64,000 bases of DNA from Tubiluchus corallicola (Eukaryota > Priapulida > Priapulimorpha > Priapulimorphida > Tubiluchidae). The stretch is from contig JAQGDQ010000019.1 in assembly GCA_030141605.1 (NCBI GenBank), positions 248,001 through 312,000 on the forward strand, in the 5' to 3' direction. Below the pieces are notes generated by a model. It saw only the letters and a program-made list of their open reading frames with translations. It made no database searches and was not told where the DNA came from. Both the position numbers and the translations under genes were made by a program. Every line of letters starts with the position of its first letter. The stretch's first letter is position 1. Positions 12,201 to 59,967 of the stretch are shown here, piece by piece.

Positions 12201-15200
12201 CTCATTGATAAACAAACTGGATACCTTGTAACAACAGTCTTTTTGTCTACATTGTATGTTTGTATTTTCATTTCTTTTTCTTCATAGTCTCTTGCTCAAA
12301 GGCACACTTTATTCAACATCAACAATTTGCCACCATACAATAGGTCATCATAATTATCAAACATTCCCGTGTGTTGTAGACACAACACACATTATGACAC
12401 TAACTTTCGAGTTATTAACAAACTGACATACATGCGTCAACAATTACAATTAATAATAAATAAATAATGTGACGATTTCACTAGTTACATTTAGTAAATA
12501 TTATTTTCATTAAAAGATATTTATGCGCAATAAAATTTACCCAGTTAGTTATTTATTAAGTTAGCTTGACAAATACAGTGAAATATCTGCTGTATTACCT
12601 GGCATAGAAATTTAACGTCAGTGGAGCCAAAAGACCTTGGATAAAGGTAAAAATTAAAGGTGTGTGCTTCATACCTACAAATAAATTAAAATATTTCTTA
12701 TAGAAATATGGAAATAAACAAAAAGTATGATCTAGGCATACAACTATTAAAATATGAAAGACACTTACTGATTTTCATTTTCAACCTTTGTGAAGATGGA
12801 TAAGCCGAGCTGCATCATAGTGAACTGTGACACGTCCTTTCGCTTCTTCGCATACCTAGCAGGCCCATTGTCAAACAAACTGTCCTTTGTACTGACTTGA
12901 GATAGCAAACCAGTAAATTCAGAATCAAAGGCTACGAAGAGAAACAATTTGCCAGATTTTAGTTTTAATGCAATGATAAGCTGAACTGGACTTTGTCTTG
13001 AGACGTTGTCTTTAAGTCATGCAACAAAATACAGAAATTAACTATGCAAATATGTATTATCATGACACTTTTTTGTCAGTAGTCCACTATTATCAGCATT
13101 TTTGAATTACTGCAGATATAAAATTTCAGTGGTGTCAAAATAGTTTTTGTATCAATAATTTATCTGTATGCATAGACACATGATGCGACAAAATAATTAA
13201 GCTAAAAAATTTTGATTTGGTATAAGACTTTTCTGTAGAAACTGACAATAAGTTATTAATCAACAGGCCTGGTATGGTAGTGAATGGATGTAAGTTCAGC
13301 TGAACCAATGGAATAATGCAGGGTTCCGTCCTTGGACTAATACTTTTGATATTTATAACAATGACCTACCAGAAATTATAACAAACAAAAGTAAACTTTT
13401 TGCTGATGGTACTAAATCATGTGATGATTGAGTGTCCAGTGAAGATGACCAGTAGTGTATCCAGTCTATTATTAACAGCATTAATGATTGGTGTGGTAAA
13501 TGGCAATGGCTCTTAATCATGATAAATGTCAGATTACGACAGTGGGAAGAGCAAATATCGACACAAAGTGCACAATGAGCAGTGCCGCATCAATATCTTT
13601 TTGTGAAGATGGAATATGCAGGAATGAAAGGCAATCTCTTCGCATTGTTCCAGTATTGTGTGACAAACCGCTTTCAATGTGTGGTCTTGAATGGCACAAC
13701 CACATGCTGAAAATATGTTAGTAGTGGCATATCTCAGGGCTCCCTCAGTGGTCACTATTCTTTCCTAATCTTCATAAACGTTATTACGAATTGCATATTA
13801 AGTGGAACATCATTGTTCTTGCATTTTGATGAATTAAAGCCATACCATCAGATATGGTATGACAGTGATAGGTGTATGCTACAACTCAAACGCAATAACA
13901 TTGAAAAATGGCTATTGGAGCTTAAAAAAGCAGGAGCCATCTTTTGTGTATCCGTCCTAAGACACAAACTCCATATTATCTTAAAGACGGACCAAATGAG
14001 GATAAATCATCCATTAAAGAACTTTATGTTACAATAAAGAATGATTTAAATTGGAATGTCCATATAAGCAATATCACTTCACAAGCAAATCAGCATTATA
14101 GGTATCACATATTTGGTGATCAAACATTTATCACAGCCAGGAAAACCTCGGTAATCATCACACTTTACAAAGCTGTTGTGCACCCAATTCTTGAGTATGC
14201 TTTGGTAGTCTGGTCACCGCAGTATTCCACTCTTAAAGCATCTCTGGAAAAAACACAAAATCAATGTGTTCGACTAGCAGTCACTATCTGACGATGCTGA
14301 CCTTTCTACGATATCAACTCTGGAACAATGGAGAGAGACTACTAACCTCATCAAATGTTATAAGATGGGTCATCCATTCACCAGGAAGATGATTTTTCAT
14401 GCCCTCCTAAACCCCTCCAAAGTATTTGTTCCCTTTTCATCCTACTTTTTCGCCTCCCGTGTCATCGACACTTGCAACAAATTACCCAAAGCAACCACTC
14501 AAGCACCATCTTTCAATAATTTTAAATCGAATTTGAGAAGGGACCGTAACCGAGTTCAATTCTAGGTCCCCATGACTTTGAAATGCAAGATTACTAGGCA
14601 AGAAGAGACTGCTTGCTTGCTTATTGCCTTATCCAATACCTTATCCAAAGAAATAAGGACCTAGATGGTAACTATCTATAAACGGTCATCTCTTATATCA
14701 TGCAGGGCACTTTATTTATGACTTTAGTCATACATTGCATAAATAGCTTATTTAATACTAATTTCAGATTTTATTTATGACTATTTATGACGTGTCAAAT
14801 TTTGACCAAAAATGCCATCCTGAGCTAAAAAGAAATACATATTTTTAATCAGAATCTTGTATTTTGCCTTTCTTCGTTCTTCATTACATTAAAATGTAAT
14901 AAAAATGTCTACTTTCATCATTCCAAGGCCTGAAGTTTCTCGTATTGTTTTGCATGCAGGCATCCCTCCAGACTGAAATCCGTGATCGTGTTTCTATACT
15001 CATCTTTGCACATTCCAAGCAAGCTGAAGTCCGCTTCCACACTTGCGGTATTGGGGAAGGCGGATGCGAAACCACCAGCAAAATCCATCAGATTCGAAAG
15101 CATGCGAAAATCTTTCCAGGCGGTTGAAAATGGCAGAGATTCCCAGTTTGGGGTGTCCAAAGCTTCTTTCGTTGGCATCTGATCTCTGTACATCTTCAAT

Positions 15201-18200
15201 AGACTGTCGTGGTCTCTCTCAATCCCTTCTATTTGGTTCTGTTGCCATCCCGCCGCAGTCAATCGTGGGTACTGCTGAAGAATAAGAGCCGTCATTTCGG
15301 ACTTTTTCATTTTGACAAGTTTGTGTGGGTGAAGCAGTGGCAGATCCTTCATGTCAGCAACTGCGTCAGATTGAAGGATTCCGTTGATACCACCCACAAG
15401 CCCCGCCATCAGATTTCCAAATGAAGTGTCAACATGGTTGACCTCTTCCTCGCTGAAGTCCTGGATCAAGTTGTGAGCGAAGATACCAAGGTTTTCCCTG
15501 AACTCCCTTGCATCACTTTTTGAGCAGATCCAGTGTCGATTTCCGACTTCCACATCACAAATAGGATCTGGATCTCCTTCATTTTCTCCTTCACGACAGT
15601 GAATGGGACAGAGTAATTGCAGAGAAGTGAGAAGATCTTGAATTTTGTGTCTTTGCACCCCGGCAATAACATTCTTTCCTTGCAAAAAACGAACTGTCAA
15701 ATGCACTTCGGTTGCAATTGAATCCAATCCAATCAACAGTACCCACCAGACTGGGCGAGGAGAAGCAGCGGGCTTTGCCTCTTGCAAGTGATTTTGGATC
15801 GTCAGCTTGTGCTCAACCAACCAACCGGTGACTTTCTTCATTGAAGCCCATCTAGTGTCCACGAAACGAGGGCAAACAGTTTTCATTTCATTCTGAAGTC
15901 TCTTCTGCCTCCTCAAGTATCCGATCAAATTGAAAAGCTCGTTGAGAAAGAGTCCATCTCCAAAGTTCTTATAGTTGCTCTGCATCTTCAAATCCAATTG
16001 ATGCAAAGCGCACCAAATTCGATAGATTTCCTGTGTAGCGGTTGCTGCAAATCGAGTGGCTACACCTGACACACGTCCAGTCATGCTGGGTTCACCGTCA
16101 CTGGTGAATGCCAGCATAGTTCCTCTCCAACCTGGCAAAATCGTATCCAAGAGTTTCTCGCAAGCATTGTAGAGGTTCTCAGCTGTTTTCTTGCAATGAA
16201 GCGGGATGGCCAGGACATGAAAATTCTGAATCTCTCCTCCGTAGTGAAAACGAATCCTGAAATCTAAGTAGTTTGCATTGTGCTTGTTTCCAGCATCTAC
16301 AGCGAGTGAAAATGCCCAGCATCCTGCCAAGAGGTTTGCCAACTTTTGCAGGTTCAAAGCCACTAGAACTCGTATGTAAGAAGCACACTTTTCCTCGTTA
16401 CAGCCAACATAATAATGCAGATTCGTTTCTTCCTTTGTAGACTGAACAAATTTCGCGGCCTGCCTGAAAGTTGCTCCGTCCCTAACGAACTTGACCACCA
16501 ACCTGAATTGAGCTGAAGACTTCACGGTAACTTCAACCTCATCGTCAGTCTCTGTGTTATCAAAGAAGGCAAGAGCTCGAGCTGCTGAGAGTCCCTCTTG
16601 TTCATCCGGATCAAACAACATTTCTGCAATGATGTTCTGGACGATGGAAGATTTTACCCTGAACCGTACAGGAGCCTCACCTTCAAAATGAACTGCCAAG
16701 GAGTTAGAACGCGGAGTTCGTTGCTCAAAAAACGTTTTCTTCTCATCGTCAGACAGTTTCTGGTAGTCCTGCCACATCAGCTTGTGCTGCTTCTCATGAT
16801 GTTGGTTGTAAAGGAAAGGTCGAAATGTTGAGAAAAACTTGATGTTGTCAGTTCGTTGACGCTTTCCTCCAACGTTTTCTTCTCGTCCATAAAATTGGCA
16901 GAATTCGCATCGAACGCTTTCAACCCGCCTGCTTTGTGTATTGACTTGCACCACCTTCAACCCGAACTTCAATTCATGCCCGTTTTGGAATTTACTAGCC
17001 ATCAAGAACACCGAGTTGATCTGCTTATGCTACAAGCATTTAGGGAGTCATGATAGTAACCGATTATCTATTCGTTACGTCACAATCAACTATTGGCGAC
17101 AGTATTTTAAAGAAAAATTCTGTGTACCGACTTTTAAAAGCATCACAATTAGCGAAAACAGTGGCTACCAGGCTGGGGTAACGCCGCTAGGATGAGAAAG
17201 GCACTGAAATGAATGTGCAAAGAAAAGAATTAGAAGTGTAGATTTCTGTTATTGTGCAGAGCGTAGGTTTGAGGCAGCAGAACTTTAGGACATTAAAATA
17301 GGTAAGCTGTCTTTAATTCAAATTTTCGATGGAACGACAACGATTCTGTCGGTGCCTATTTATTTTTTCGCAGTAACGCGCTCATTAACTTTTTATTATT
17401 TAGGTTGCTTCTAGACGAGTTAATGACAGATAAACGCATCAGTTAGACAGTCTCAGTTACTGTGTTAGTCCACCAAACAGTCACGCGCAAGTTTCTTATG
17501 GACTGCCTGTGTGTGTGTGGGAGAGAGAGAGAGATGGTGGAAACAGTTTTCTGTACTGAATTTTTTGTTCCATTCATCGGGAAATGATTCTTTTTCTTTC
17601 GTTATTTATGACAAATTTGAAATCTTATTTATGACTATTTAGGACTATTTTGCAAGAAAAGTCATAAATAAAGTGCCCTGCTTATATGCCTTTTGAAACT
17701 GTCAACTAATGAAGCACTGATGGTTGATGATGAAAGATGATTCCATGGTCGAACTACACGATGCCCAAAGAAGTGTGATCTGATGTTGGTTGATCCACTA
17801 ATTATTTTGAAGCAGTTCACAAGGTCTACAGTCTCACGCCTTTGTTCAAGAGTAGAAATTGAAGCGGGATGAGTGCAACTATCCTGAGTTCTTTTAAGAG
17901 CATTCTTGAGAGTAGCATACTGGGGTGACCATAGAAAAGACAGGTATTGCAGAATGGGTTGAACAACAGCTTTATAGAGAATAATTACTGCTGCATTTCT
18001 CGATATTACACAACGCTTAATCGTGCCAATACACGGTTTGCTAATTGGTTTAATTTAACAGAGTAACATAGAATAACACAGAGCACATAATTTAAATCAC
18101 AAAAATCAAGGTGCCAAAACGTCACAAACCAATAAAAGTTGAGTTTTTGATACAGGTTTCTAAAATTTCAAACAAGTATTCGAAATTCGAGTTTGTAACC

Positions 18201-18208: not shown

Positions 18209-20752
18209 TTTGCACAAAAACCAAGACGGGAAATCTGAAATTGATTTGTTATGTCAAAGAAAACGAAGAGCTCTCCGATTTCCGTACAGTATCAGTAAAT
18301 TCCAGAGCGGGTTTTTGCAGTTTGTGTATTTATGATTTTGTTAAAAGAAAAACCTTTTAATCAATAAAAGCAAAACAAGAGAGTAACACAGAAAGGAAGT
18401 GATATGTGAAACAAAGTTGAAAGTGTACTTCATAGTTGTGAGGTATTAATTTTAATATTAAGCGAAAATAATAGCTTTAGCTGCATTGTGTATGAATACG
18501 ATACTCAAACTTTCAAAGTTAGAAACAATAACAAAAATGTTTGACTAGTCACAAAAAGGGAAGTTTTGTGATCTGCATTAGTTGAAACCCGTATGTCGCT
18601 TTTATGAATTTTACAAATTTATTGTTAAACTTTATACACCTTTTTTGGGGTATCAAAGCATGGATAATACATATACAAATTACAATAGCTGTGGCAAAAC
18701 GTGAAAGCCGCTACAATAACGATCAATATTAGATCGAAGATCACAGAACAGTTGTAGCGCTGGCATCTAGTACTAACTGACGAAAGTTATTCAGTAACAT
18801 TACAAGCATACTGAGTTAATTGTCTCTATTAAACTGCAACATTATATGCTTAACAAACTTAGCTACATTTGACAATACTTTGATTTTTTTCACAACTGAA
18901 TAATTCACAAATTTTTACAGTACTGGGCCTGTTATAATAATATCATTTGATATATGTGTGCTTGCAAACCAAAACCATCCATAAGTCGGCATAGTTAAAA
19001 CTACGTTATGATGCTTCAAACTAGAAAGTACCAAAATTTGGCCAATGTAGTGTTTAATGTAAGTGTTTCTGTTTTCTTCACGATTGTGCGACTTGAACTT
19101 TTTTATAGTTATGGCATCCACGAGAATTATTTCCATAGCTCCAAGTACTTCCTAATATCCAGACTCACTCATTTTTTGTAATTGTATGTCCCTTGAGATC
19201 TTGTTTCATCTTTGAAGCTAAAAAAGTCTGCTATCCACACTGTCTATAGATATTTTAATGCTTTTAAATGCTTGTGTGAATGAGCCTGTGCTTTACGAGT
19301 GACTAAAATTTATTCCTTGTTTGTTGACATCAAGAGCCACCATTCTGGATATCACTTTAGCAGATCTATATTGTACTTCTAAAAGTGTAACACCTTTAAT
19401 GTGATGCGGATTCTAAACCAGAGAGGCTTGTTTGACAATTGGTTAAGCTTTGGAAGTGTACGTTCTCTATATCACTAGAGAACTTTTGTTAATGAAGCTT
19501 CTGTTGACTATCTTAAAAACTGAATTAGCTTTCGTGACCCCGTTGCTGGTTTGGATCCATTTGTAACGTTGACTCCAAGGTGGACTTCCTCATATATCTC
19601 AGAAATGGGCATTGTTCATGCAGTGCTCCAACTTTAAGTTTGCATGCCCCCTGTGCATTAGCTTCCATTTATCGTTTTGAATAATTTGCCACTTCATGAG
19701 CCACTGATGTAACCGAAGAGTTTTCAAAAAGAAACACATTCAGTTGTTAGAATGCGTACTTAGCAGAAGAGATTTGCAGAGCCCGTAGTTATTTGTACCC
19801 TGATTGGAATATTGTGAACAGTATAATAGCAGAACTTTCAAGGGATTTTTCTAAAAACAGTTTAAAGCCAATACACAGGTAATTGTTGTAATTTTGTAGG
19901 ACAAATGAAGCTCAGCCATTTCTTGCTTTTACTTTTGCTCATCTTTTTGTTTCTGCTCTTTTCATTAGTGTACAGTACTTTGGCTTTCACTGAAGCTTTT
20001 GCCTTTAGCAGTGTAAGTCTTGTTTATTTAAATAATATAAATGATCATGTGTATAATTTTTTTTCAGTGATTATATTTATATACGTGTGTATGTATGTAT
20101 GCACGATTATGTCATTGATTCACGTCTGATAGTTTTGAAGATGCAAATCAATGGTAAATTTTACTGTTGTGGTCACACTTACAGCTTAGGTCATTTTCGT
20201 GATATCTAACTAACTGCACATGGTAAATTTAAAACCCCAGCATAAAAATAATGGTGAGGTTACTATGAAGCAATTAAGTCATTACAGCATGAAAATGTAA
20301 CGTAAAGAAGTGCAGCAATACATCCTTAATTTGTTCTGTAGCTAGCCTTTTAATAACGCTGTGTCTAATTTTATGAAGCATCATGTTTTTTAGCAATTTT
20401 ATTCTAGCATTTGCTAGCAGTGTCAATCCTTAGTTATGTACACTGAATGATATAATGCATTGTATGATGTTTATAATCATTATTTTTTATGGCAAATAAA
20501 GATATTATATGTCATATATGTGTGCGTGCGTGCGTGCGTGCGTGTGCATATGTGCATTCGTACTCAGATTTTTTTATTATTATTGCAGGTGTTGTTGGAC
20601 AACGTGTAGAAGAACTTCACAAATAATGCAAAAATTGTAGATGGAAATCCACTTTTTACTCAGACTTGTATTGTGTAGAACAATTATAAACCACCTGCCT
20701 ATGTATTTTGACTTCAGAGGACTTACATAGCTTAGGCTGCATTGAACCAGTA
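18209..20752. other. Divergent intergenic region between PNLDC1-like and Eph/tectonic genes
   Basis: The two genes are transcribed away from each other, so both promoters should lie here. I see no conserved gene. A TGCG/TG microsatellite lies at about 20518-20546, and a T-rich acceptor-like site (attattgcag) near 20588 could begin the exon that carries the Eph/tectonic start. A short hydrophobic reading frame at 19905-20129 has no support. Confidence 0.5.
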
Positions 20753-21635
20753 ATGCAGTCAACTAATGCTGCACTTCTTATATTTCCTATGCTCTTGCTT
20801 TTGACAAAATCTGATGATTTTGTTATTTTAGACAGCAGAAACACAGGTGCAAGTTGGACAATGTTTCAGACAGATAAGGATGAGAGCACTTGGACATATG
20901 ATCCAGTATCAAATGCCTTTATGGTAAATTCTACCCTAACTGCAACTGCTCAAGACAATTGGCTAGTGTCACCATTTATTGCTGTTGAAGGATTATCCAG
21001 CATACATGTTCGCATAGAGTTGTTGTTTAAATGGTGTAACTATAGCGATAGCAAATACACTCTAGACAATTGTAAATTAGATATAGAATTGTTCCAGTTG
21101 CCATCATCTACACCCTTGGGCAATCTTATTAATCGTACTAATGACTTCATAAAAATAGATTCAATAAAACCCGACAAATATGATGTCAGCTCAGAAATTT
21201 TTATTGAAGACATTCCATTAACTACAGGCTTACCTGGTCTTTATGTGGCCTTCATTGATAAAGGTACAGAAATGTCAATTACAGGAATTGCTGTGACAAC
21301 AAAAGAATTTTGCCCGGAAGTCGTCACAAACCTTGTTCATTTTCCGCGTAGTTTGGCATCGCAAAATGTCACAGGAAGTTGTGTGCCAAATGCACGATCT
21401 TCGGAAACCTTTCAAAGGGAATGCAAAACTTCTGGTCACTGGGTGGTGTGGCTTTCGGGGTCCTGTGATTGCTTACCAGGTTATTTTGAATGTAATGACA
21501 CATGCATTCATCTTGATTGTCAAGGACAAACTTGCACAAATATTGATGCATGTGGAAAATTGCCTTCATTTTCTTGTCAATGCACAATGGAAAAGTGCAC
21601 CTGTCAGGATCTGGACCTTTTAAAGCAAAATGCAG
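20753..21635 (+). other. Exon encoding signal peptide, Eph ligand-binding domain and cysteine-rich Sushi/EGF-like region
   Basis: One exon carries the whole Eph-like part (294 residues). The start at 20753 gives a short polar start followed by LLIFPMLLLL and then SDDFVILD, where the mature domain begins as in Eph receptors. Upstream in-frame codons lack an ATG. The exon ends with one base of a Gly/Asp codon, which is completed exactly by the exon at 22690. The Eph domain normally binds ephrins; whether ephrins exist nearby cannot be seen. Confidence 0.8.
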
Positions 21636-24600
21636 GTATGGTATTTCTATAAAGCTTGTAGTGTTGTAGATGCTCTGCTACACACAGTTGTACTTATATT
21701 TCGTTAGGCCTCAAGTATTTTCTGTACTTGTTTTTCATATAAGAGTTGCATAGCAATGTTGTTTACAATAAAATGAGTTTTACCACTATAGTAAAATACT
21801 TCATTTCACAGATTCACTTAGATTTGTGTTTTTTTTTTCAAATTGTTGTAAGTATGTGCTTAGTGCACTATGTACTGTTGTGGAATAAGTTAAACTTAAT
21901 TGCATATCCAAACCTTGCATAGTATCAAACCATGCAGGAAGCCTCTACAAATATTTCTTTTTTCAATGCGTAATAGCTATATACCAGTCGCGGCTCGTGC
22001 ACTGTTTACTAGCGTCTGCTGCTAGGTAGAACAGTACTATCTCTGTCACAGTAACAATTGCCACATGTTTACTGTGCAGCATCATATTTTTGGATGTGAT
22101 AAAGTGTAAACTTAGCATGTGAGCTTAAAACATAAATTATTTAATAGTGAATGACATGCATCCCCAAGAAATAAGTTCTGTGACTGTAAGAGCAGCCCCA
22201 CTAATTTTAGCTACGTGCCACCACTGTTATGTACAGTGCAAGTCATTTTGGTCCAGTGCACCAGGATCTCAAAAATATCTCTGAGTGACCTTTGCATGTG
22301 AAATAAATTCACATAATGCATTTTCTTTTAGCTAAATTTTCAGTGGATGGCTTTTCACATTTTTTATCTGCAAAATTGGAATTTATAATGTTAGCTTCTG
22401 TTTGTGGTAAGACTGTTTGTAACATTATAAAATTTCAAAGATAGATTTTCCACTCTATATTACTTTAATTGTAGATTTGGTAATATATTGTACAAGAACC
22501 TGTTTAAATTTAAATTGTGTGAGAGTCACTGGAATTATTTATAACTATAATTCTGTTTTCCCAAATTGACCACTATGGAGAAAGTGTCTCATCTCAATTT
22601 CATTTTACTCAACTTTAATTTAAGATTAAGTTGTAATGCTACTGTATGATGTGCAGAAAGTTAAAGCCTGTCTCCTCTTTTCATTGCAGATTTTACAATG
22701 TTGAACTATCCAGCAACAGAGTTTGCTTTCAAAACAAATGATGTGTACTATTATGGTTACATCGAAATTCCACTAGACTTGCAGCCATTACAGCCAGATC
22801 TTGATGATATTGTTGCTGTAACCTGCAGTGCTGTGGAAACTTATGAACGGGAATCGACACAAATTCATTTTGAAACTGTGAATGTACCACCTGGCACAGA
22901 ATCCGTCATGGTTAAAGGTTGGATAACTCAGTATAATGCAAACAGCACACCTCGAGTGGCATGTTTTGTAAAATATGCTATTGCTAATCAAGATGATTAT
23001 ATGGGACCAAGGGTCTTTGTCATTGATTCAGAAATCAGATATAGGTACTTTTTTGCATATTTGCTAATATCCTTTAGGTTTTCAGTTCGTTAGGTTCTTT
23101 ACACTTTTTTTGGCTTGACATTATTAATTGAAGAATTATGATTTCTTATGTAGACAATTTAATGCTTATTGTGGTTGTGTTTATTGGCACAAATTTGTAA
23201 TTAAACACAAAATATGTATATAATAAGTGTTTGAAACAAAAACTTAAAGGAAAAACTGCACCCAATCTTAAACTATACCTCAAAACATTATAGCCTATAA
23301 AATAGTGAAAGGGAATGTACTATTGTTTCAATTACAACTTACGTAAAAGAATTATTGCCACAGAATGGTAATTGCACGTTCGCATGACTTGTTCTTCGCT
23401 GTTACTTGCATTTCACTGTTTGTTAGTTAGATGGACACTTGTGCTTGCATCTTGGAAAGGCTTTGCACAAAAAACACGTGCTGTACCCTCTGTTCAGTGG
23501 TGATGTAGTGCACACATCAAGAGCTCCTGCGAGCTCAAGCAGTAAAGTTGAAATTTAAATTTTTAAACTTAAAATTTGCTAAGTTTTTTGTATATCATGC
23601 TGAATGTTGTGCAGTAGTTTTGCTTTCGCAGACATGTGTAGCACCTTGTTGAAAATTATATTCAATTGTGTTGTCAACAGTGTGGGGCTTGCCTGCTTTT
23701 AATTGCGTGAGTGTGTGCATCTTAGTCTTTTCTTATAGTACCCACATCCTAAGCGTTCTTCATATAAAGTGCGTTAAAACAACAGCGATCTAACTACAGT
23801 TGAGATCTGATTACTGCTTGGCACGTCTGCCTTCATTTATCTATGGTAGTTTGACTGACGGGATTTACTAGGATGTGTAAATGCTTTAGAAATCATATTG
23901 TTTACAGCTTGAAGGTGGCAGATCTTTTTTTCTTATTAGTTTTCTCTAGCTTTTATGCTAGTGTTAAAAACTTGGAACAGATTGCTTCTTAGGTAGCATG
24001 ATGTATAGAAAGTAATGCCACACCATGAAATTGTTGCCACCTGTTACTAACATTTGGGTAGTACTTTCATAATTCTTATGATGCAGAAATCTCTTCATGG
24101 CATGAATAGATCGCAGTAAACGTTTTTCATTTTACACTATCATCTCAATGATTGCTCAGCTAGATAAAGCAACTAAACTGAACTTGGAAATTTTGACTAA
24201 ATTGTTTATAATAAGAAACCTTGTCACGCAGTCTATTTTCATTTATCAACTGCTGATTTTTTTAGGATGTTCACTCTTGTCGCAGCAAAAGCTCCGGTCA
24301 TTCAGTTGTGCGGTGATTTGATAACTGTTCCACAGTACAGTGATATGGATACATACATTGTGCAAGTCAAGCTTTCTGAAGCAGTTGAGAACAGCAGTGT
24401 TACAGTGACTTGTGCTATAGTTGATGAGCAAGGTATGTAGCTGCAGACTTGCAGCATTCAAAAAATAATGTATTATACATAGATACATTATGCTGTATAC
24501 ATTGTACACTAAATTATAATGTCGAAGGGGTACACTAATAATAGTCGTGACCTACTTGTGTTTCCTTATTAAGTGTGCGCTAGCGTTTGCATTTGTCTTA

Positions 24601-27600
24601 ATATTTCATTTTTTTGAATTGCAATTTTCTTGGGCTTGGTCATTAACTTAACCACAGTGATCATAAATCATAAATAGAATTCTGTAACATTGAAATCTGC
24701 TTTATTATAGAATATCCAAAACTTTTTAAAAGTTAATTATCATGTCTAAATTTATCTGATAAAAGTAGAGTTATAAAATTAGAACTACTGGATAAACATA
24801 TTACGTTATTTGGTAATATCGCTTAACATTGCAACCTACCGTAACACACTAACAGGAAATTTGTGCATTGATTTTTGTTTCACCACAAAAGAAAAATTAT
24901 AATTTGTAAATTACTAGCATTTAAAGTTATTTTTAGCGATCGGAAATATTTTTAAATGCACTGTTTTTGACCACAAGGGAGTTTTGGTGACCGTAGCTCA
25001 ATGTGACGCCTGGTAAATTATTCCAGCCATTTTGTTCATCAGTCAGTATTGTTTTACCTTGAGTTTCCTCAATAAAATAAATAATATTAATAATAATGAT
25101 AGTTGTATAAGATGCTTATCTGGCACTAAATTCTGCATTCTCTTTGTAGACAATGGCCTGAAATTATCTTTTCATCCTGCTGTTGCTGAGTTAGGAGCTG
25201 TTTTGTTGGACATATATTACAGTCTAATTTCCATTGGTAATCCAGTATTAGTGCAGTGTTTTGGTAACTCTAATTATGGTACACAGTACGTTAACAATAC
25301 ATCAGCTGGTAAGTGACAAAACCGCATTGTAGTTGTTTGCTTAAGTTGACTTAAGAAAATCAGTGTAACGATGTCAATTGTTTTTTCTTAAATTATTTTT
25401 GTTATTCTTACAGTATTTAAAAACTATTTGCCTGTATATAAATTATAGGTTTTTCACTGAAGATTTTTTTAGTTTTTGACAGATTAGCACAACTCACATC
25501 GAAACTTAAATGCCATCATACATTGGGAATTGAAGATTTTATGACTAGTTTAGGAATTGGATCAGCTTACTGTTCTGTCTAAAAAATGAATTTTCAGAGA
25601 GCTTACTTGAAGCCATAGCTTACATTAAAAATGGGTGTACAGAAGAGAGTAAAAAGCGTAGAGTAGGGGGAGTAGGGGGACATTTGTGCTTTGATATGAT
25701 GTTAAGCAGCACAGGTGGCTGGCTAGAAGAGTAGCAGGAAGACTACTGCTGGGCAATATGAGCTTTGAAATTACTTTTTATATAAGATATTTTCTTGTGT
25801 ATACGCATGCAAATGTGGCTACGGCTTTTCTGCTGTTTTAATGTCTCATCTCTGAGGTTTACACACAATGTCGTTGAATGGTGCTGTACCCTAGGTTGCA
25901 AAGTGTCAAACTATATACTAAAATTTGACTCCATAGAGCTTGTTTCATATGTTTTCAGGCTAGCCTTATATGTTTAAATGCCCACAGTTTGCATAGAAAG
26001 CTATTTTCTACATAAAAATTTGATTTTGCAATTGTTAGTGTTTATATTAAAATTATCTGACACTAGGTGAGTCGGTGATGTTTGTGCTGGATACTGGTTC
26101 CGTCCATTTAACTCCTGTTCAGTCTCCAGTCTACACTACAAAGATTGAGCTATTGTTGCTTCTCGATGCTGCATTGCCTGAAGGCGAACTGATTTTTCAG
26201 TGCTGTGTGGATTCTGTAAGTACAAATGCACATATAATTAAAGTTAACTAACTTTGGCAATAGTTAAGCAAAGAAATATCTCTAGTGTGAAGGAAAAATC
26301 AGATATGTCAGACAATTCAGCTTATCACATTAAATTATTTTCTTTCACAAAGACATCATCTGGTGCTGGTTGTTATATCCTATTTAATTAACATAATTAT
26401 ATGGAAATCTAGTGACATTAAAAACGAACGAAAACCAGTAACTGTGTTTTTCAATATCAACAATACAAAAATAAAAGCAGAGAGTTAATGTATTATCGCA
26501 GTGGCAAGTCAACCAGATAAATCCAAACATTCTACACACAACAAGTTGTTCTGAATTTTCTGTTTAAATTCTGACCAAAGAAATAATGTTTCAATGCTTC
26601 TGAAATTTAAACAATGAACTAGAAGTAAAATTAAGAGGAAATAATCAAGATCCTGACTTTCCTGGAACTTTGAATTGCAATATTTTGGATTCAGTTTTTT
26701 CTTGTTTTGATTTTTGCTATGCCACAATGCTACTTTAATTTTGGTTATAGGCAAGTTTATGTTTGTTGTAGGTATATTACCGTGCCTTGAAAAACAATTG
26801 CGAGAGTTGGCAGTATTTGTTTTAAGTGGGTATCGGAAAGGAGTTGCTTACTGCTTGTGTCGTTTATATTGTGCCATATTATGGCATTGTTAGTGTAATT
26901 ACAACATTTATTTTCTATCAGGATATTGCAGCAATCCAGGCTTTAAGTGGATTGAGTGCCTGCCAGTGTCTTGCAGATTACAGGGGCTTAGATGCTTCAA
27001 TGTTTGTTACCTCATTAGCAGATGAGGCTGTGATTAACAATGCGAGTGCAACATTAACTACCACTAACGTCATTGCTAACACAACAAACACTTTACACTT
27101 GGTGAATGAAACAACTGATGTAAATGAGACGGCACCATCCAATGAGACGACAAGCAATCTAACGACTAATGGTATATAGAGGAATTTATACATTTTACAT
27201 TAAGCTAGTACAGTGATATATTTAATTGATAACATAAGCCCCTATATAACAAGTGAGTTCTCCGTGTTTTTATTTATTTAGTATTCCATTTAGTATTTTG
27301 GTTCCTGTGTATTTAGAACCTTCTCCATGTTTTGCATATAGCAACATATTGTTTTCGTTTGGCTGCAAAATGTTCTGGCTAAAGACAGTGTAATGATGCC
27401 AGAATCAGTAGTATTACATGTTATGTCCATGGTCCCAATCCAGGGACTACTGCTGTCAGTCCCCTTGGGATTGGTGTAAAAGGCAATAATATACATTGTA
27501 CTTTAACAAAGCAAGTAACAAATTGTAACAACATCACTATTAAAAGTAGTATCTGCATTTTTGCACTTATGAACCTCTTACGTGGAACAGATTCAAGATT

Positions 27601-30600
27601 GCTGTTAAGCTGTAAAGAGTAGATCTTACCTGAGGGTTAGTTCTGGAGTCTAGTGTTTGTCACTGGTGGCTCTGGATGCCACTTGGATAGGTTAGAGCAC
27701 CTAGGTTAGAGAATTTCTCTTAAATTTAGAAGATACTGCACACTTGGAAATAATCAAATCAGTGTAGTGTATATAAATCAGGAAGTGGGGGCCCTGGCTT
27801 TTTAAAATCATTTAAATGATTCCTTAAATTGCAATTAGTAAATTTCTTTCTCCTGCAGGCACTGCATCGATCCCACTGGTGTCAAACAATGATGATGCTG
27901 ATAAACAAACGTTTACTGCCGAAACCAACATATCAACTGACAATGGTGTCTGGCAGCTTGTTGAAGACAAATTTTTATTTCAAGTTAGTGCTAATGTTAA
28001 TGTGTTTTTGGTAGAAGTTAATTGATATTTTTTATTATTCTTAGTATACCCACTGTATTTATGATGTTGATGTAGTCAACATGCTCAGCTGTAGTTAGTG
28101 TACATTCTCATCTTCCTGCAGATGTTTTCAAAGCTTTTCTTGTTTTAAGGTCTTGAAACATAAAAACCTTAATATTTAGTACTTTTTGGCACATTACTAA
28201 TAGTTCATCTAAAAAGCTGTTCGATTTTATACTGGGAAGTAATTTTTTTTGAAACTGATACCGTAGATTTTTACAGACGGAAAAAAAAGAAAAACTATAA
28301 ATTGTGCCCTTGTGCTAAATTTTCTCAGGTAGCCAAGCAAATGCCATTCCTTGCCAAAAAATTCATATCATTTGACTGTTACTCATGATGGATATGCATT
28401 TTAAAGGCAAATTTTCATGTTATTTTAATTTTCTTACATAGATATCTTGGTTGTTTTCTTCAGACTGACGAAGTATACAAGAAAATTCAAGTTGTTCGAA
28501 ACAAGTATACACAGAAACCTAGGATAGAATACGTGTCAGTCAGTTGCTGTGTTCCACCAGTTATCAACAACGTCGAAAAGTATATCAATATGACCGTGAA
28601 TTCCACTGTAGCTGCTGACATATCACCAACATGGCAGTTCAGCTGGAACAATACCACAGGTGAGTCATATGATATGAGTATGTGATAAAATTGAGAATTT
28701 GTCTTTATTGTTTTGCACAGAGAGCTGAAATCTTACAGAGTAGATGTGATTCTACTTCAGGTTTCACTTATACTGTTTTGGTCTGTCAAAATAAAGGGTG
28801 TCAGGGCCGAGGAAATGATTGCTCACTTCTGTACAGAAAGAAACTAACAACACCATGCCATTAATCACAACATAAGTGTCTAGTACTGTCATTAATCACA
28901 ACACTAAGGGCCATAAATGAATAGTGTGATTTATGTTAGTTGCGCAATGGTGTCGTCACTCTTTTCTTCAAAAACTTTGTTGATTTTTGATATCTCACAA
29001 TGAGAAGTGAAAAGAATTTAAAAAAAACATTAAATAAAATGTATACTAATGATTAAAGTACTTAAAATATGTTTATATCTATTGGTGATAACTTTTACTA
29101 TATCAGGTCTGTCATATCCTGACACCCTGCAGTTTGTATGGAATCTTAATGTTTGCAGTTTTTACTCTATTCTGTAATCACATTTCTGTTCAACTAACTG
29201 GTCCCCAAGACAAAAATAACACATGTCTACCTTTTCCTACAATTTATACAATAGTTTTTCTTCTTCTTATTTTTATTTTCTATTCTTGGAATGGCTGTAC
29301 AGTGGTAGCAATATGTTAATTTGGTTATAGTGGAAGAAGATCTGGAAACTGAAACAGAATTTCCTGAACCCGAATTTGTGGAAATCTCTCCTTGCACATG
29401 TGATGTTTACACTGCTCATTGTGATACAAACTGTTGTTGCGATAAGGTGAGAGCCAGCAGCTTTACTAATTAATGATTTTTTAATAATTTTTTATGCGCA
29501 AGCATCGTAACTGCTCCCGGAGGCGCAACCAGGGTTTCATTTAGCTAGAGTTGCTAAAGTTTTTTCTTCTTAAAGTTGTCTATTTGAGTTATTTGTCCAT
29601 TTCTCCATGTCTTTTCTTTCATCAGTAGTACCTTTTTGATTGGTGGAGGCATTGGAAATAATGGGAAATTGCGTAATCGTCCACAAAAGTTAACGAACTT
29701 GAGAGCAGCAGTCATCCCCTTCTGTGCCCAGAGGTAACTGGGAGTGGGTGGTCACACACACACACACAGTATAACCTCTAGCAGCACAGTATGTCATTAA
29801 TGGTGTCATTTCTGTGTTTAGTTCAGCTTCATGTAATGTTTTGCCACTTGAAGTGGGGCCCTTAATGCTTGCTGCCCCGGAACCCTCAATGGTTTTCGAG
29901 GGCCCTGGTGGTATTATGAAAATGCACATATCTTGCTCATAGTGAACACTTTTTGTGTAGTTTTTTGTGTTTTGTTCACTGAACTAGCATTTAGTTTTAT
30001 GGTTTGTTAACATTAAGAAACTCTGGCTTAGTACTTCCATGCGTGACTACAGATGATTCCGTTGTTAGTCGTCCAACCTTTGTCTAGCATTAATTAACGG
30101 TGGGAAGTAAACAATAACAGAAATGGCTTGTCAGAAGCAAATTATAGAAAAATACCCATTCATAATATCTTCTGTTTTGCTGCAGTGCTTTTAAGAAATA
30201 TTGCTGATTGTTTTATTAAGAAAACTTTGTGCCTGGTATGATATTTATTAATGTACATAGAAGTGTGGTAACAGGAACAATAACAAGATTATGGAACAAA
30301 TGAGATGGTAATTGTTTTTACAGGATTGTTCTGAAGACGCATTACATGTATTTCATTGTTTGCCAGACCTATTTGGTGGACAAGTTGCTGATCCATATAC
30401 CTATAACTGCTCAGCTCGTTCCCTTTATTCACCTGATTGGTTTTCACTTATGTGTGTGCAAGTCAGTAATACAGCTTATCTCGGTGAATACTTTTCAGTC
30501 GTTGAGGGATTAAGAAGTACAGCAAGGTGAGAGCTAGTATTAAAAAATCGGAAAAACACTTAAAAGGGTTTGTTATTTATTTTTGCACTTTGTTTTTATG

Positions 30601-33600
30601 TTTGGTACAATAAGTCTAAAAATATTTAAATTTGAATTATCTGTATTGCCGTTGCTTTCATTTCGTTATTCCTATGACCAAAGGTAAGCTTTCTAAGTCC
30701 CAGGTGAAAAGAACACAAGGTTTGCCACATTTTTAGTAAATCCATGTAGGATCATTCTATCCATGTTGTGCAGATTAGTTACTAATAGTTCCCAATTCTT
30801 TACTAATTCCAATTTACCAATTCCTAATTAGTTACTAATTCTTTACTGATTTTACTGGCTTTACTGCTACCTTTGCTACATTCAAATTTTACTGTTGTTT
30901 TGTAATTTTAGTTATGCCCAATTTGTAAATAACAGAAAACCTGACTTCGGCTTCCAAGAGACTAGCGAGAGAAATTTTGAAGGTAATGGACAAACTGAAG
31001 AAACAGCCGGCTACATACATGGCAAGTTTCATATCTTAATTTTTTACTTTGAAGAAAACTAGCAAAATTGGATTAGAATGAAGTAAGGAAGTAAACAGCG
31101 TTAAAGTGTTGATTTCTGTAAGCCGATTGTTTTTTTTTTGTATATTTAGAAACACAGCATCTGCTTGAGAAGCATGGAGGCTTATTTTTTAAATTGTGAC
31201 AATACTAGCTTTTTCTGTTGAAAATATATTTCTGGTTATTAGTCTTTAAAAAGTTAATTGTTATTAAGTCTTTAATTCTGTTTAATGTTACATCAAATTT
31301 CATTTACTATTTAGTTCACTAGAATATGGGTTACATTTTTATAGGTGTTTAACATTTACTTAAATGTTAATGTTAATTTTGATTTAGTTTTATGTTTTTG
31401 AATTTTGTGTAATGTTGAACAACTTCACTGATGAATAGTAATAATTCATTTGTCTTAGTAAGTTAGTACATGTACCAATCTTATGTTTGTCAAATACAGC
31501 AATAATAATACTTATAATGTCTAGGTACCACACTTAAGACAAGAGTGGAAATTAATGGTAAAATACAGACTGGATATCTTGCTCTTCCTACACGTTCAAT
31601 CAATGGGCAATGTACTATGGAATCTCCTCTTCGCTACCTTTTTGACTTCTCTGATACTTGTGTAAACACCATAAGCAGTCAACTCTGCAGCGAAGAATCT
31701 ATTTTAAATGCACGCATATATGTGCTTCCATCAGCTGTAACAAAGACCATGTGTCCTTTGCCACCATTGTTGTTAAAGGAACATAATGGAGTTGAAGTAA
31801 CTGACATTGTTGTCGACTATTTGTGTTTAAACAATAGCAACAGAAAGACTGAGAATTTCTCCCTCGCTTCCTTGCTAAATTTCAATACAGTGCTACCAAA
31901 TGGTTTTGCTGATGACCTAATAGACTGCCAATACGTGTACAGTCGCAACATTACTTTGCCACCCCTACCTACATTTAATTCTTCAATAAACATTTGTTCT
32001 AATGTTGTTCTTGATGTGAAGTACACATTTTTCTGGACGGGTACCATGATATCAAAACTTCATGCTTTGATTATACTTGGAAATATTTCTGCCTTTGATA
32101 CTGTATCAACTAAGCCAATTCCTACACAGATTATACAGTCATTTTCTGCTGCGTATCGGCACATTGGACGCAATACATCTCTAGAAAATGATGAGCCAAA
32201 ACACCGCTCTGGTATGCCAGGATACGATATTGGGAAACCCATCTTTAGTGGAGTACTGCAAAACAATTCACAAACAAATGACCAGTACATAGACACAAGC
32301 AAAGCATTCGCTATTATTAAAGCACATAATGATGGTCTTTGTCATAATTCTACAACAGAAGAAATATTATTTGGCTGGAATATTCACACTGGCTGTCTAG
32401 TGAAGCTTAGTTTGGAAGACTTGTCCGACTGTGATAATTTAAATAAGCAAGTGAAACAGTTCCTTGATAATCTTATTCCTTCTTCTCATATCAGTCGTGG
32501 AGGAAGTCCAAATAGGAATGTTCTTGCAGAATGGATTTCAATTATTAGGTAATGGCACATATTGTTTTAATAATTGACTGTTTTGTGCATATATTTATTT
32601 AGCGAATGTTAATTACGAGGTAGTCCTATATTTCATAGTGCTTTTGGTGAAACCATATTACATTTGCAAAGAATATGCTGTGTATATCTAACATGCATAT
32701 ACCTTTTATAATGTAACATTAAGAAAAAACAGAGTTGTAACTGGTCATCAGTATTTCTCATCCACAATTTGTGGGTTTTCATAGTCGACATGACATTGGT
32801 TACACTTGAACAAAAAGTAACTGCTACTGTGGGTGTGTGGTGCAAATTTACCAGGCACAGCTAATCAGTAGTCACTAATTTGAAGTTGTTTCTTATCCTG
32901 GATTTCCTTACATCTATTATAGTTGTATTAAAAGTAATTACAGTGAGTCTATACTTTATTATTGAGCTGTTAGTCTCAGACAAGTCACTCAAAACATTCT
33001 TTTTCTATATACATATAATGAGAAAGGGTTAGTTTTTGGAGCCCACACCAAAACAAGTCCTATTTGGTGTATACATGTGGCATCAATTTATTGGCCTAGC
33101 ACCTGCAAATAGTTCTCTAAGGTGGAATTGAAAGTTCTTGCATAGCTAACTGTTTTAAAATATTAATTTTTTAAATAGACCTAAAATAAAAAAGAATTAC
33201 AAAGAATAGTAGTTTCCTAGGCACCAAAAATAAATATTTTTTGGTACATGCAAAAGGCATATAAATTTGGCCAAATAATTCCAAATTAAGCTTTTGGAAA
33301 AGTTTCGATATTCGGTTCTAAGGTTTTGGCAAATCATTTTAGGCCCATGACAGTTAGAGAAGACAACAGTTAAAAGAGGATATTTCAGCACGTGCTTTTA
33401 GCTTTGCTACAAGCTCTTTCATGATTGTAAACATTTCTAGGGATACAAGAGAGAGTACAAACAAAACTGAAAATGTTACCAACTTTCACAAGAGTGACAC
33501 CTCGGCCACCTACTCCTTCCTTCAACAAAAGGTAAGTTCCAAACTCATCTTGAAAATGATACCAATTTTCAAAAGAATAACATCTTGGCCACTTACTCCT

Positions 33601-36600
33601 TACATATGATACGTGCATAATTATTACCGAAACTTTACATTATGATATTTACAATGATTACATGAGATGAACTGTATTAGTAGTTTACAGTAGTACAAAA
33701 CGATACGTTGGTCTTTTACCTTATAAAATAGTAAACGACCTAGCTCAACTCAGTACAGATTGCCCAGAAAATATATAAACGTGGACAAAAAGCCAATTTG
33801 GTATGAATAGGTAAATAACCTTTTGAGAAGTGATTAGGCAGAAAGCCATATAATAAGGCCTACAAGTTATTGATACAGAATGGTTGCACGTTCATTCATT
33901 AGCAAAGAGAAACTTGTCAGCATATCCAGGCAACCAATGTTGTTAGAAAATAATGACACCATGCCTCAGAATATGCCATGCTGGCACATTTCTCGAACCG
34001 GTAAGTTCCAAACTCATATTTTACATGGGGTGCTTTTCTTGCTGGATTTGGATACCTGATATATGGATGGATCGGGTATCCGGTGCATCCCTAATTTTAT
34101 GTAGCAGTCATGAACTTATGTACTCACTAGTGCTTCAGCATGTAAAGATGTACAGTCATTAGTTATTGAGTATGTGACAGTAATTTAGTTAAATGTTTAT
34201 TTATAAATGTTATTGACAGCAAGGATATGGAGCCTAAGGAATCTATTACATTCATTATTATTTAAAAATCAGAATATGAGATGTACATTTGTTAGTTATG
34301 CACCAGTAATTTATTTTAATGTTTATTTATAAAGATTACCGACAGCAAGGGTATTGAGCCTAGGGAGCCTAGGTTATTTAGAGTTTTGCCTCAACCTATA
34401 TGCGAAAACATAACAAGTGGAGTAATGATAGACATACTTTACACCAAAGCTGGTCAAAGCAATGGGCATTCAATATATGAAATAAATGGAGCTAAGCTAA
34501 AGTGAGTAACAGTATTAATTTAGAAAGGTAAAGTCATGCTGTGCATTTCAGAGTATTTCGACAGGCTACCATAAGACACTGTATTTCTGCTCAAGCTACT
34601 TTTTAACAGCCTTGGCTGATCAGTTTAATCAATGCATCTAGTTAACTTTTCAGCTGTTGAGAGTGTTTAGATTGTAGCCGCATCTATGTGTTTTTGACAG
34701 AAAGCCCTTAATGATTTTATAAAAGGGCGGCAAAATGCAGTCAACTCCCAGATAAATGCAAATGCAAACCCGGATACATTCACCTGTTTGCTTCTGATTA
34801 AACTACTCATTAAAAAGCACCTGTTATCTGTGAAAGCAGAAGCATAAAACAGTTTAATGTAAAAGTATAACAGATAGATTATTTGGTCTTGTCACCAAGC
34901 TTATCGGTCTGGAGAATACCACGATTTTCATATATGTTTAGGTGCTAACTATAGTGTTACACCTTGTGATATATGACAATTTTAGGAAATGTTATTCATC
35001 CAGCTTTTAAACTTATATACCAATTAGCCATAAAAAATTAAAACTTTTGCATTGCATTAGTGGCAGATACATTAATTTCACTAGTTGTGATTGTTTTAAC
35101 GAATTACCAGAATTTATCAGGTCAGCTGTTTTATTTTCTGTTTACAAGTAATTGTGCCTGCTATTTAAGGTACATGTACTCCAACTGGTATTTGAGTTGT
35201 TCTGGAGCAGATGCTATTCGTTGTCAGGGTAACATTACTGCCGTTGAATCATTTGTCATCTCTAGTGAAGTTACATTCACAGAAGTGCCACCTAAGCCAT
35301 TGCCAGTGCAAAAACGGTTAGTCTTTCTGTTATTTCTAAAGTTTTGTACATTTACCTGGCACATTTGTTACTCATAAATTACCCTTCTTAATCTGTTACA
35401 CAAATGCATTTGACAAGGGGAACTGTCCGAGCTGTGCAATAATCAGAGTTCGGCGAAGTCACATATTTTTCTCGGTGAACCACTTTCAGTCAAAGTTACA
35501 CTGAAAGTTAAACCCAATTGTTTCGTCATGACCACTATGTATTTTTCATCAATTCATTATCAGCTAAGTTCATTAATGACAAGATCATTATCAGTGTAAG
35601 ATAACTTTTTGCTGATTCCACAGTGATTTTTATGTAGTGACTAGTGACTACTGTATTATATTATTGGTAAGTTTATTGTTTATTTTACATCCCTATTTAC
35701 ATGACAGCTAGTAAAGCCCCGTACTGTACTGTACCATATTGTACTGACAATAATCTTTTAGTTACTGTTATCAGTTTTTGCCGTTAGTTTGACCTAAGTT
35801 TGTTAATAGTTTGAATGATTTTTCTACACGAAATGTATGCATTTCTTTCTCTTCCTAATATTGCCCGATTTGCCTCCTCGTTTTTACTGTAACCATTCTC
35901 TGGCTCAGAAAAGTCACTAAAAAGTACAGTCACCTCTGTAAAGTCTCTTCCTTGAAATATTCTAGTCAGAGTTATAAAAGGCAGTTCAGGCAGAGAGATT
36001 TTTGTGTGGGAAACTTTGATTAAGTAGTTTCAAACCAAATCCATCTGCATCCGCATCATACTTTACTGAATTGAGCGTTTCCAGCCATATTAGTTCGCTA
36101 AACTGCTATTTAATGATCCAGCTAGCACTGCAAGGAGCAGACCAAAAACAGTGGTTTTTGCATAAATTGTTCCCCCTAAAATATATCGAATTTAGCCATG
36201 TGCAGAATTTTGTGATTGCTTTATAACATGTGACAGTATAACATGTAAGAACAAATTCCGCTTACAGAATTTGAGGCGAGTTGTGTTGCAAATTAAACAG
36301 AATTGAATTTTTGCAGAGTAATGGTGAGTCTACTGCACTTTCCAAATAAGTTTCTTGTTGCTATAAATAGCCTTTGACTCTATGATTTTTGCACTCTCAT
36401 ATTATTTACATGTATTTTTTAGATATTGGGCAAAGAAATTACCAGCAAATTTATGTAAGTATGACACTTGTAGACAAGAGATACTTTATCCACTCACCAG
36501 TGCCTATCTAGGACAGAAACTTTCGTATGGTCTCGAATTTACTTTAATAGGTGTACTCTTCCTTTGTGGTTTGTTCATAGTTACTAAACCATGGTGGTGA
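20753..36600 (+). CDS. Fusion gene: Eph-type ligand-binding ectodomain + beta-repeats + tectonic domain (15 exons, ~1405 aa)
   Basis: Exons: 20753-21635, 22690-23044, 24266-24432, 25150-25308, 26067-26215, 26922-27171, 27859-27983, 28464-28659, 29331-29446, 30324-30526, 30912-31021, 31525-32548, 34346-34501, 35170-35316, 36423-36600. All phases join and the sum is 1406 codons. Residues 1-20 are a signal peptide (MQSTNAALLIFPMLLLL). Residues 23-200 match an Eph ligand-binding domain: FVILDSRN, NWLVSPFI, C95/C107, and FCPEVVTNLVHFPRSL. Then GSC...GHWVVWLSGSCDCLPGYF is Sushi/EGF-like as in Eph receptors. Residues 295-571 are beta-rich repeats and 572-761 an Asn/Thr-rich linker. Residues 762-1405 are tectonic: CDTNCCCDK, SGMPGYDIGKPIFSG, FGWNIHTGC, and a C-terminal helix ending KPWW. 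No kinase is present. Tectonics act at the ciliary transition zone; a ligand-sensing role here is inference. The alternative is two adjacent genes. Confidence 0.8.
31022..31524 (+). other. GC-AG intron
   Basis: Only a GC donor (CATG then gcaagt) keeps frame between the exon ending TAGYIH and the next, which begins at 31525 with GTTLKTRV. The rest of the donor matches consensus strongly, as is usual for GC-AG introns. Confidence 0.7.
34146..34372 (+). repeat. Duplicated 3' splice-site segment (decoy acceptor)
   Basis: Bases 34146-34243 and 34279-34372 are diverged copies: both contain atgtttatttataaa, then gacag and a following caagg.tat.gagccta segment. The second copy supplies the real acceptor at 34346. 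The first has an equivalent acceptor at 34220, but reading on from it gives a stop (SKDMEPKESITFIII then stop). Confidence 0.75.
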
Positions 36601-58938: not shown

Positions 58939-59011
<73 letters not shown>

Positions 59012-59967
59012 TCCCTCTCCCTCTCCCGCTCCCTCCCCTCCCTCTCGTTCTTCCCTTCTTGTGTTCCCCCTTATCTTTGCTGTATTACCTATTTCATTAC
59101 AGTATTAGGTCGTGATTGGGCCTCTTTTTCTCTACATTATTGTTACCGTTTTCATTGTCCTCTGCCCAGAATTTTGAACTGGTGAATTATTAGCCTGTTG
59201 AAACTTGCAGCAGTACTATGCACTGGAAAAAATTTTTCCATACGTATCTATTAAAAAATATTGTATTTTACAATGAATTTGATAAGTATTTTTGATTTTA
59301 CAGGTGCATTACCCTTGAATGCTGCTCCATAAATATGTGGCAGCTGATGTTTAAAAGAATTCATAGGTCAAATCAAGTTGCTGACAGCATTCTGGAAGTG
59401 TTGCAGGAATTTGATGTTGTTGAGAATCCAATATTTTTTCACTTATTCAGCAATGGTGGTGCTGTCATATACCTGCAAGTTTTAGAAAATTTCTACCAAA
59501 GGTGTGGAAGAAACCTTGATCTAAAGGGTTGTATTTTAGACAGTCTGCCAGGAAAATATTCAGCCATTATCATCATGCGAGCAACATTTAATGTTTTCAC
59601 ATTCAAGTATAAGTTATCATATTATGTCATATCCACTGGTGTATTCTTTGTTTTGTTGATGTACAACATGCTCTGCAAAATCACTGCATACCTTACGAGA
59701 AAACCACATATTGCTGTACATTGTTATTATGATCGTATGAAAAATGACAGAACTCGCTGTCCTCAGCTCTTTCTCTTCTCAAAATTGGATGTTCTCATAC
59801 CTTATGAACATGTACAAGAAGTGATAAACTACAGAAAATGTCTTGGAGTAGATGTAAAAAGCATTTGCTGGACAGATTCTCCACACGTTAAACATTTTGT
59901 TGTACATAAGGAAGCGTATTCTGCAGCTGTTCGTTCATTCCTTTTCAACTGTTTGAGTAGAACGTAA
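56576..59967 (+). CDS. TMEM53/DUF829-family protein, paralogue 2 with extra N-terminal exon (3 exons, ~334 aa)
   Basis: Exons 56576-56737, 58644-58822 and 59304-59967 join in phases 0 and 2 and total 1005 bases. Exons 2 and 3 match paralogue 1 in order: IILLGWAGSSIKQLSKYAEF, FHLFSNGGAV, ILDSLPGK, RCPQLFLFSKLDVLIPYEH and DSPHVKHF, giving the same putative Ser-Asp-His set. Exon 1 encodes 54 residues (MRRVTVNKFTTILQQVGIYR...) rich in Arg, Lys, Ser and Thr with almost no acid residues, a pattern like a mitochondrial presequence. An alternative start without exon 1 is an ATG at 58593 that reads straight into exon 2. A pogo-like element (57554-58517) fills most of intron 1, and a CT microsatellite lies in intron 2. 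Confidence 0.8.
57554..58517 (+). mobile_element. pogo/Tc1-like non-autonomous element, copy B (964 bp)
   Basis: Inverted ends CTGTAGGCGCCGGTTAATAGAC and the reverse complement of CAGTAGGCGCCGCTCAATAGAC are flanked by TA (57552-57553 and 58518-58519). The interior aligns with copy A at 43060-43891 from the left end through tttaaaatattaatttatataagtgaatta and again near the right end, with about 130 bp of length difference. Confidence 0.85.
58938..59046. repeat. (CT)n microsatellite
   Basis: About 110 bases of near-pure CT grading into CCCTCT repeats lie in the second intron of TMEM53-like paralogue 2. Serine/leucine-rich frames across it are artefacts of the repeat. Confidence 0.97.

Follow-up and report, generated by a model that had tools for sequence, protein, structure and literature searches.

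Through Eph receptors a cell senses contact with its neighbours, and tectonics guard the entrance to the cilium. In the genome of Tubiluchus corallicola (343.5 Mb), positions 20753-36600 on the plus strand of a 64-kb window (the whole stretch of DNA analysed, lying within a 1.32-Mb contig) probably hold a single gene that joins the two, a kinase-less fusion of an Eph ligand-binding domain (LBD) with a tectonic-2, which would act as a receptor of the ciliary base. In vertebrates the Ephrin_lbd domain seems to be Eph-specific, according to excerpts of a survey by Arcas and others (PMC6993872). Krishnan and others report kinase-less Eph architectures from sponges, cnidarians, ctenophores and a choanoflagellate, and describe some of these records as fragments or partial gene models (PMC6485061, excerpts). 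Tectonics belong to a membrane-bound transition-zone complex, of which Tctn1 is extracellular and glycosylated (PMC10500017, excerpts), and both termini of Chlamydomonas TCTN1 contribute to transition-zone targeting (PMC12723291, excerpts). In the main text of the two Eph surveys (PMC6993872, PMC6485061) the word 'tectonic' does not occur, and a literature search on Eph or ephrin combined with tectonic, with most subscription journals outside its reach, returned nothing relevant.

The model comprises 16 exons, and splicing checked by script joins them into 4320 nucleotides that encode 1439 amino acids and a stop codon, with no internal stop. Fourteen of the 15 introns are GT-AG and intron 11 is GC-AG. 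A first-pass annotation of this DNA had proposed 15 in-phase exons totalling 1406 codons without a stop; this chain is reproduced (4218 nucleotides, 1406 codons including the final stop) when exon 13 is dropped and the acceptor at 34346 is used, and since it stays open, exon 13 can be regarded as optional with the frame unaffected. An assembly error joining two loci is scarcely credible, given that the exons follow one another in the expected order over only 16 kb of the contig, with introns of 385-1221 bases. The features of the model, with the evidence for each in brackets, are as follows.

20753-21635, plus strand: exon 1, with signal peptide, Eph ligand-binding domain and cysteine-rich (sushi/EGF-like) region, donor in phase 1 (splicing, Pfam, PDB search)
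20825-21295, plus strand: Ephrin_lbd (PF01404) match, amino acids 25-181 (Pfam, also genome search)
21311-21607, plus strand: cysteine-rich region after the LBD, amino acids 187-285 (EphA4 ectodomain alignment reaching amino acid 285)
22690-23044, plus strand: exon 2, linker or middle region, all beta in a model of low to medium confidence (splicing, codon score, structure model)
24266-24432, plus strand: exon 3, middle region (splicing, codon score, exon-chain scan)
25150-25308, plus strand: exon 4, middle region with a weak coding score (splicing, codon score)
26067-26215, plus strand: exon 5, middle region with a higher-scoring reverse frame (splicing, codon score)
26922-27171, plus strand: exon 6, with many N-glycosylation sequons (splicing, codon score, residue scan)
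27859-27983, plus strand: exon 7, middle region (splicing, codon score, exon-chain scan)
28464-28659, plus strand: exon 8, last middle exon, donor CAG/GTGAGT (splicing, codon score, exon-chain scan)
29331-29446, plus strand: exon 9, start of the cysteine-rich DUF1619_N of the tectonic (splicing, Pfam)
30324-30526, plus strand: exon 10, remainder of DUF1619_N (splicing, Pfam)
30912-31021, plus strand: exon 11, with a GC donor (splicing)
31525-32548, plus strand: exon 12, large tectonic exon, TCTN_DUF1619 from amino acid 1133 (splicing, Pfam, genome profile search)
33441-33531, plus strand: exon 13, optional (splicing; frame kept without it via acceptor 34346)
34335-34501, plus strand: exon 14, tectonic domain continued (splicing, Pfam)
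35170-35316, plus strand: exon 15, end of TCTN_DUF1619 (splicing, Pfam)
36423-36600, plus strand: exon 16, C-terminal transmembrane stretch (about amino acids 1414-1434) and a short tail ending in KPWW, stop TGA (splicing, hydropathy)

Exon 1 occupies a stop-to-stop frame of 20690-21652, with its first methionine at 20753. Around the optional exon, a segment made up of the beginning of exon 14 and the flank before it has a second copy 126 bp further upstream (34171-34245 against 34297-34371, 81% identity), and a stretch resembling a donor at 33531 is repeated at 34000 (86%). A degenerate copy behind exon 13 had been suspected and was unsupported by a repeat search.

The identity of the two halves is carried by profile matches. 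Pfam returned three families up to E 1 for the 1439-residue protein, all above their cut-offs: Ephrin_lbd at amino acids 25-181 (E 2.7e-12, 47.6 bits against a cut-off of 27), DUF1619_N (PF25752) at 767-851 (E 1.9e-14) and TCTN_DUF1619 (PF07773) at 1133-1334 (E 8e-19). All 35 distinct PDB sequences matched by exon 1 (phmmer, E<=0.01) are named Eph receptors, and the best of them, an EphA4 ectodomain (7.6e-17), aligns with residues 63-285, so that the cysteine-rich region behind the LBD is matched too. No PDB sequence matched the tectonic half up to E 1. The hydropathy profile, from which alone the signal peptide and the transmembrane stretch were called, has 19-residue windows above 1.6 that start at amino acids 7-8 and 1414-1421, the strongest beginning at 1414, and one further, marginal window at 479 (1.63 against the cut-off of 1.6). 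A signal-peptide-like N-terminus and a C-terminal transmembrane stretch are thus both present, in what we take to be the layout of TCTN2. A human TCTN2 sequence, used as a lead only, aligns along the tectonic half with a score of 451, whereas 200 shuffles reach no more than 61. Pfam gave no fn3, kinase or SAM match up to E 1 in the model protein, which ends after the transmembrane stretch, and a scan of the window for kinase motif patterns, run without a positive control, found none. The Eph-type ectodomain, the in-phase joining exons, the complete tectonic and the missing kinase of the first-pass annotation are all borne out by the model and these searches, the ectodomain by the profile match to the LBD and by a PDB alignment that continues into the putative cysteine-rich region, the tectonic by two tectonic domains together with the C-terminal membrane stretch.

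Exons 2-16 appear to be present once in this genome. With their translation as the query, all 15 matches scored up to E 1 fall on exons of the fusion gene itself, and PF07773 finds this locus alone at E<=0.001 (four candidates scored); because both searches lead to the same place, no stand-alone tectonic-2 is visible, although a strongly diverged TCTN1 or TCTN3 elsewhere could have been missed. Ephrin_lbd, in turn, matches four loci up to E 1. Two of them (C44 and C28) are canonical Eph LBDs (E 2.4e-49 and 2.4e-48), both with an Ephrin_CRD; downstream at C44 there are Ephrin_rec_like and an fn3 match just below its cut-off, and the stretches read at the two loci showed no kinase exons. The fusion gene (E 3.1e-11 in the genome search) and a fourth locus, C2085:571001-581000 (E 5.0e-7), are more weakly matched. 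The latter contains an LBD with Ephrin_CRD, an EGF exon, Ig-like exons and a transmembrane exon (parts 922-1540, 2842-3003, 3742-4113 and 8199-8333), the Ig-like exons having a best E of 4.2e-6, below Pfam cut-offs, and the transmembrane exon being called by eye. In the 30 kb read there, neither a kinase motif (scan without a positive control) nor a significant match to the tectonic half was found. With such exons behind a second divergent LBD, it seems that LBDs underwent recombination in this lineage.

The two divergent LBDs share a further feature. Two disulfides of EphA2, C105-C115 and C70-C188, are described by Krishnan and others as invariant in Eph LBDs and as present in those of choanoflagellates (PMC6485061, excerpts). 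When the four LBDs found in this genome are aligned, both canonical ones carry all these cysteines, and the fusion gene and C2085 lack columns 38 and 162, which correspond to the C70-C188 type pair, while keeping the pair at columns 74/86. The fusion LBD has only the C105-C115 type pair; the 94 residues ahead of position 95 contain no cysteine, nor does the stretch between 107 and 187. The fusion LBD is also nearest to that of C2085 (33.3% identity, against 28.2 and 27.0% to the canonical two). As the cysteines are lost in pairs in both divergent LBDs, the domain is best read as folded but altered; the two LBDs possibly descend from a common ancestor, and loss of the pocket disulfide hints that the ligand has changed.

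Several observations weigh against a single gene. On the side of the domains, Ephrin_CRD was not reported by Pfam for the model protein up to E 1, and the structure model of exon 1 alone was unusable (predicted local distance difference test, pLDDT, 36). A protein database search at E<=0.001 gave no match for the whole protein (scored against the 7987 candidates with the most shared words), for exon 1 or for the tectonic half, a null that says nothing about animals because this database returned no tectonic whatever. Between the cysteine-rich region and the tectonic half lies a linker of about 470 residues (amino acids 295-762, exons 2-8) that matches nothing in Pfam or PDB up to E 1. Internal repeats suspected by eye in exons 2-8 were rejected after six comparisons, none of them significant, the best being equalled by 86 of 500 shuffles. 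Exon 2 alone was modelled as all beta with medium confidence (pLDDT 65), and as the best Foldseek match had an E of 6.9e-3, with none at E<=0.001, only the description 'beta-rich' is retained for it. Exons 4 and 5 were not recovered by the stiff exon-chain scan described below. At the junctions, exon 1 reads through into an in-frame stop ending at 21652 with an AATAAA at 21767, intron 1 offers one weak in-phase alternative start (21773, hydrophobicity 2.06, donor 4.3), and intron 8 contains an ATG at 29049 that opens a hydrophobic, signal-peptide-like 19-mer with an in-phase donor ranking ninth of 527.

That the middle region is nevertheless coding is indicated by statistics. With codon statistics trained on exons 1, 9, 10, 12, 14 and 15, the model frame outscores the other two forward frames in all seven middle exons, but is itself outscored by a reverse-strand frame in exon 4 (3.6 against 2.7) and exon 5 (8.1 against 6.9). 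A dynamic-programming exon-chain scan of 21636-29330, using splice matrices from the tectonic half only, scored 41.8, against a mean of 0.4 and a maximum of 10.4 in 200 first-order Markov resamples; it returned exons 3, 7 and 8 exactly, exon 2 with a different start and exon 6 in an extended form. This stiffer scan was substituted for one with low exon cost, which overpredicted (22 exons; 119.6 against a mean of 57.8 and a maximum of 89.5 in 60 resamples). The donors of exons 1-8 rank 5, 18, 4, 3, 17, 25, 8 and 1 among 527 GT sites, in a matrix that includes these eight donors themselves. A likeness of the middle region to the N-domain of TCTN2 was not significant (best piece equalled in 36 of 300 shuffles, the whole middle in 152 of 300).

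The main competitor of the single gene is a pair of neighbours, namely a secreted Eph-LBD protein made of exon 1, or of exons 1-8 up to a read-through stop at 28683, followed by a tectonic-2 with its own start in one of introns 1 and 8, and this arrangement we regard as unlikely. Exon 8 read-through is followed by an AATAAA at 28790, so that such a signal lies about 110 nucleotides past each of the two read-through stops; the stretch listed contains 29 instances of AATAAA or ATTAAA. Against two genes stand the donor of exon 8, the first of the 527 GTs and in phase with exon 9, and exon 9 itself, which has no methionine of its own. The model is weakest at the exon 1/exon 2 junction, as the read-through stops and the weak start in intron 1 leave it resting not on homology but on phase, on donor strength and on there being no good start elsewhere.

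The 29049 element favours two genes most directly, and the low-exon-cost scan also takes 29059-29106 as an exon. At a hydrophobicity of 2.5 and a donor score of 4.9, thresholds that were chosen after the element had been seen, it is unique on both strands of the window; at looser limits there are seven such elements in 128 kb of strand, this one included, and hence chance alone would put about 0.04 of them in intron 8. When the genome was searched with this intron, the element proved to lie inside a dispersed repeat.

28877-29150, plus strand: dispersed repeat in intron 8 (genome search with intron 8)
29049-29106, plus strand: rival signal-peptide-like exon in intron 8, inside the dispersed repeat (start and donor scan, genome repeat search)

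This search returned intron 8 itself and at least 40 further matches of 69-81% identity (40 of 74 candidates scored), of which 37 of the 40 scored overlap 29049-29106. Among nine copies read, four are open over the candidate exon, three of them with an ATG, and the donor GT is kept in one of the seven copies that reach its position. As four of nine copies have it open, the hydrophobic frame was presumably brought in by the repeat, and because it is part of that repeat the 29049 exon is probably not a genuine first exon. Its coding score is -1.4, and its start stands in a poor context with an overlapping ATG upstream. A tectonic starting anew just before 29331 was one of the signs of two genes named in the first-pass annotation; a candidate for it does exist, but it is a piece of a dispersed repeat. 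Repeat membership takes away most of the weight of this start, even though a copy may have been recruited as an exon. If so, a long fusion transcript could coexist with a short tectonic transcript, made from an internal promoter in intron 8 and using the repeat-derived signal-peptide exon. That exon is in phase with a usable donor, and it would supply an Eph-free tectonic that is otherwise undetected in the genome; set against its non-coding-like score and poor start, such a double output seems very unlikely. The single fusion gene is thus the reading that we carry forward.

Further elements were seen upstream of exon 1 and in intron 1. At 19905-20012, about 0.7 kb before exon 1, there is a signal-peptide-like frame of high hydrophobicity that ends in a phase 0 donor, possibly an alternative first exon or part of another gene. 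As a start for exon 2 it was rejected, since the phase 0 donor does not fit that exon; splicing to 20720, which is in frame with exon 1, would be possible and would only lengthen the N-terminus. Intron 1 contains a short dispersed repeat at 21999-22190, with at least 39 further long matches of 85-89% identity (40 of 314 candidates scored). Elsewhere in the window, two adjacent DUF829 genes at 54200-54877 and 58473-59967 on the plus strand, which we take to be TMEM53-like, probably represent a tandem duplication, and a 703-residue open frame at 14918-17029 on the minus strand looks transposase-like by eye and had no Pfam match at E<=0.01.

The predicted product would be a type I membrane protein composed, in order, of a signal peptide, an Eph-type LBD, a cysteine-rich region, the linker, a tectonic of the tectonic-2 type and a C-terminal membrane stretch, with almost no cytoplasmic tail behind it. 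Its tectonic half would make it a member of the MKS/tectonic complex, on the outside of the membrane at the ciliary transition zone, and the Eph-type domain would point outward and bind a ligand, an ephrin or some other one, carried by a neighbouring cell or the matrix. Because the protein has no kinase, its part in the ciliary gate would be adhesive or ligand-sensing, and not that of a signalling kinase; the adhesion or guidance role at the ciliary base put forward in the first-pass annotation is an inference. As a gene-level fusion of two known kinds of protein, known here from the sequence of one genome, the predicted gene appears well supported. More tentatively, and somewhat doubtful in our own estimate, the only detectable tectonic-2 of this animal may permanently be an Eph-family ectodomain protein, so that its ciliary gate carries a contact receptor, and two divergent LBDs may have been recombined onto different membrane proteins.

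Such a fusion would show that Eph ligand-binding domains can be recombined onto unrelated membrane proteins, and if the two LBDs without the same pocket disulfide are what they seem, they would represent a separate, kinase-free branch of Eph-type recognition. With both halves in a single polypeptide, one locus would also suffice to test whether contact sensing is directly and physically linked to the gating of cilia. If it is the sole tectonic-2 of the animal, the ciliary gate could not be built without the Eph part.

Compared with Eph receptor tyrosine kinases (EphA4 and EphA2; in this genome C44 and C28), the predicted protein has the signal peptide, Ephrin_lbd and a putative cysteine-rich region in the same order, and one LBD disulfide pair (columns 74/86) is kept. 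It differs from them in that FN3, kinase and SAM domains are absent from the model and a tectonic replaces the rest of the receptor, and from the canonical C44 and C28 in that the second cysteine pair is missing from its LBD. Kinase-less Eph-LBD proteins are alike in having an Eph LBD without a tyrosine kinase, whereas the excerpts of PMC6485061 mention no tectonic partner for them. The C2085 gene, with its LBD-EGF-Ig-like-transmembrane architecture, is the nearest by its LBD and by the same loss of cysteines, yet it has EGF and Ig-like exons and a transmembrane exon of its own where the fusion gene has the tectonic. Finally, Tectonic-2 (TCTN2) of the MKS/tectonic complex of the transition zone shares DUF1619_N, TCTN_DUF1619 and the C-terminal transmembrane stretch with the predicted protein, which differs from it by about 760 extra N-terminal residues that include the Eph-type ectodomain.

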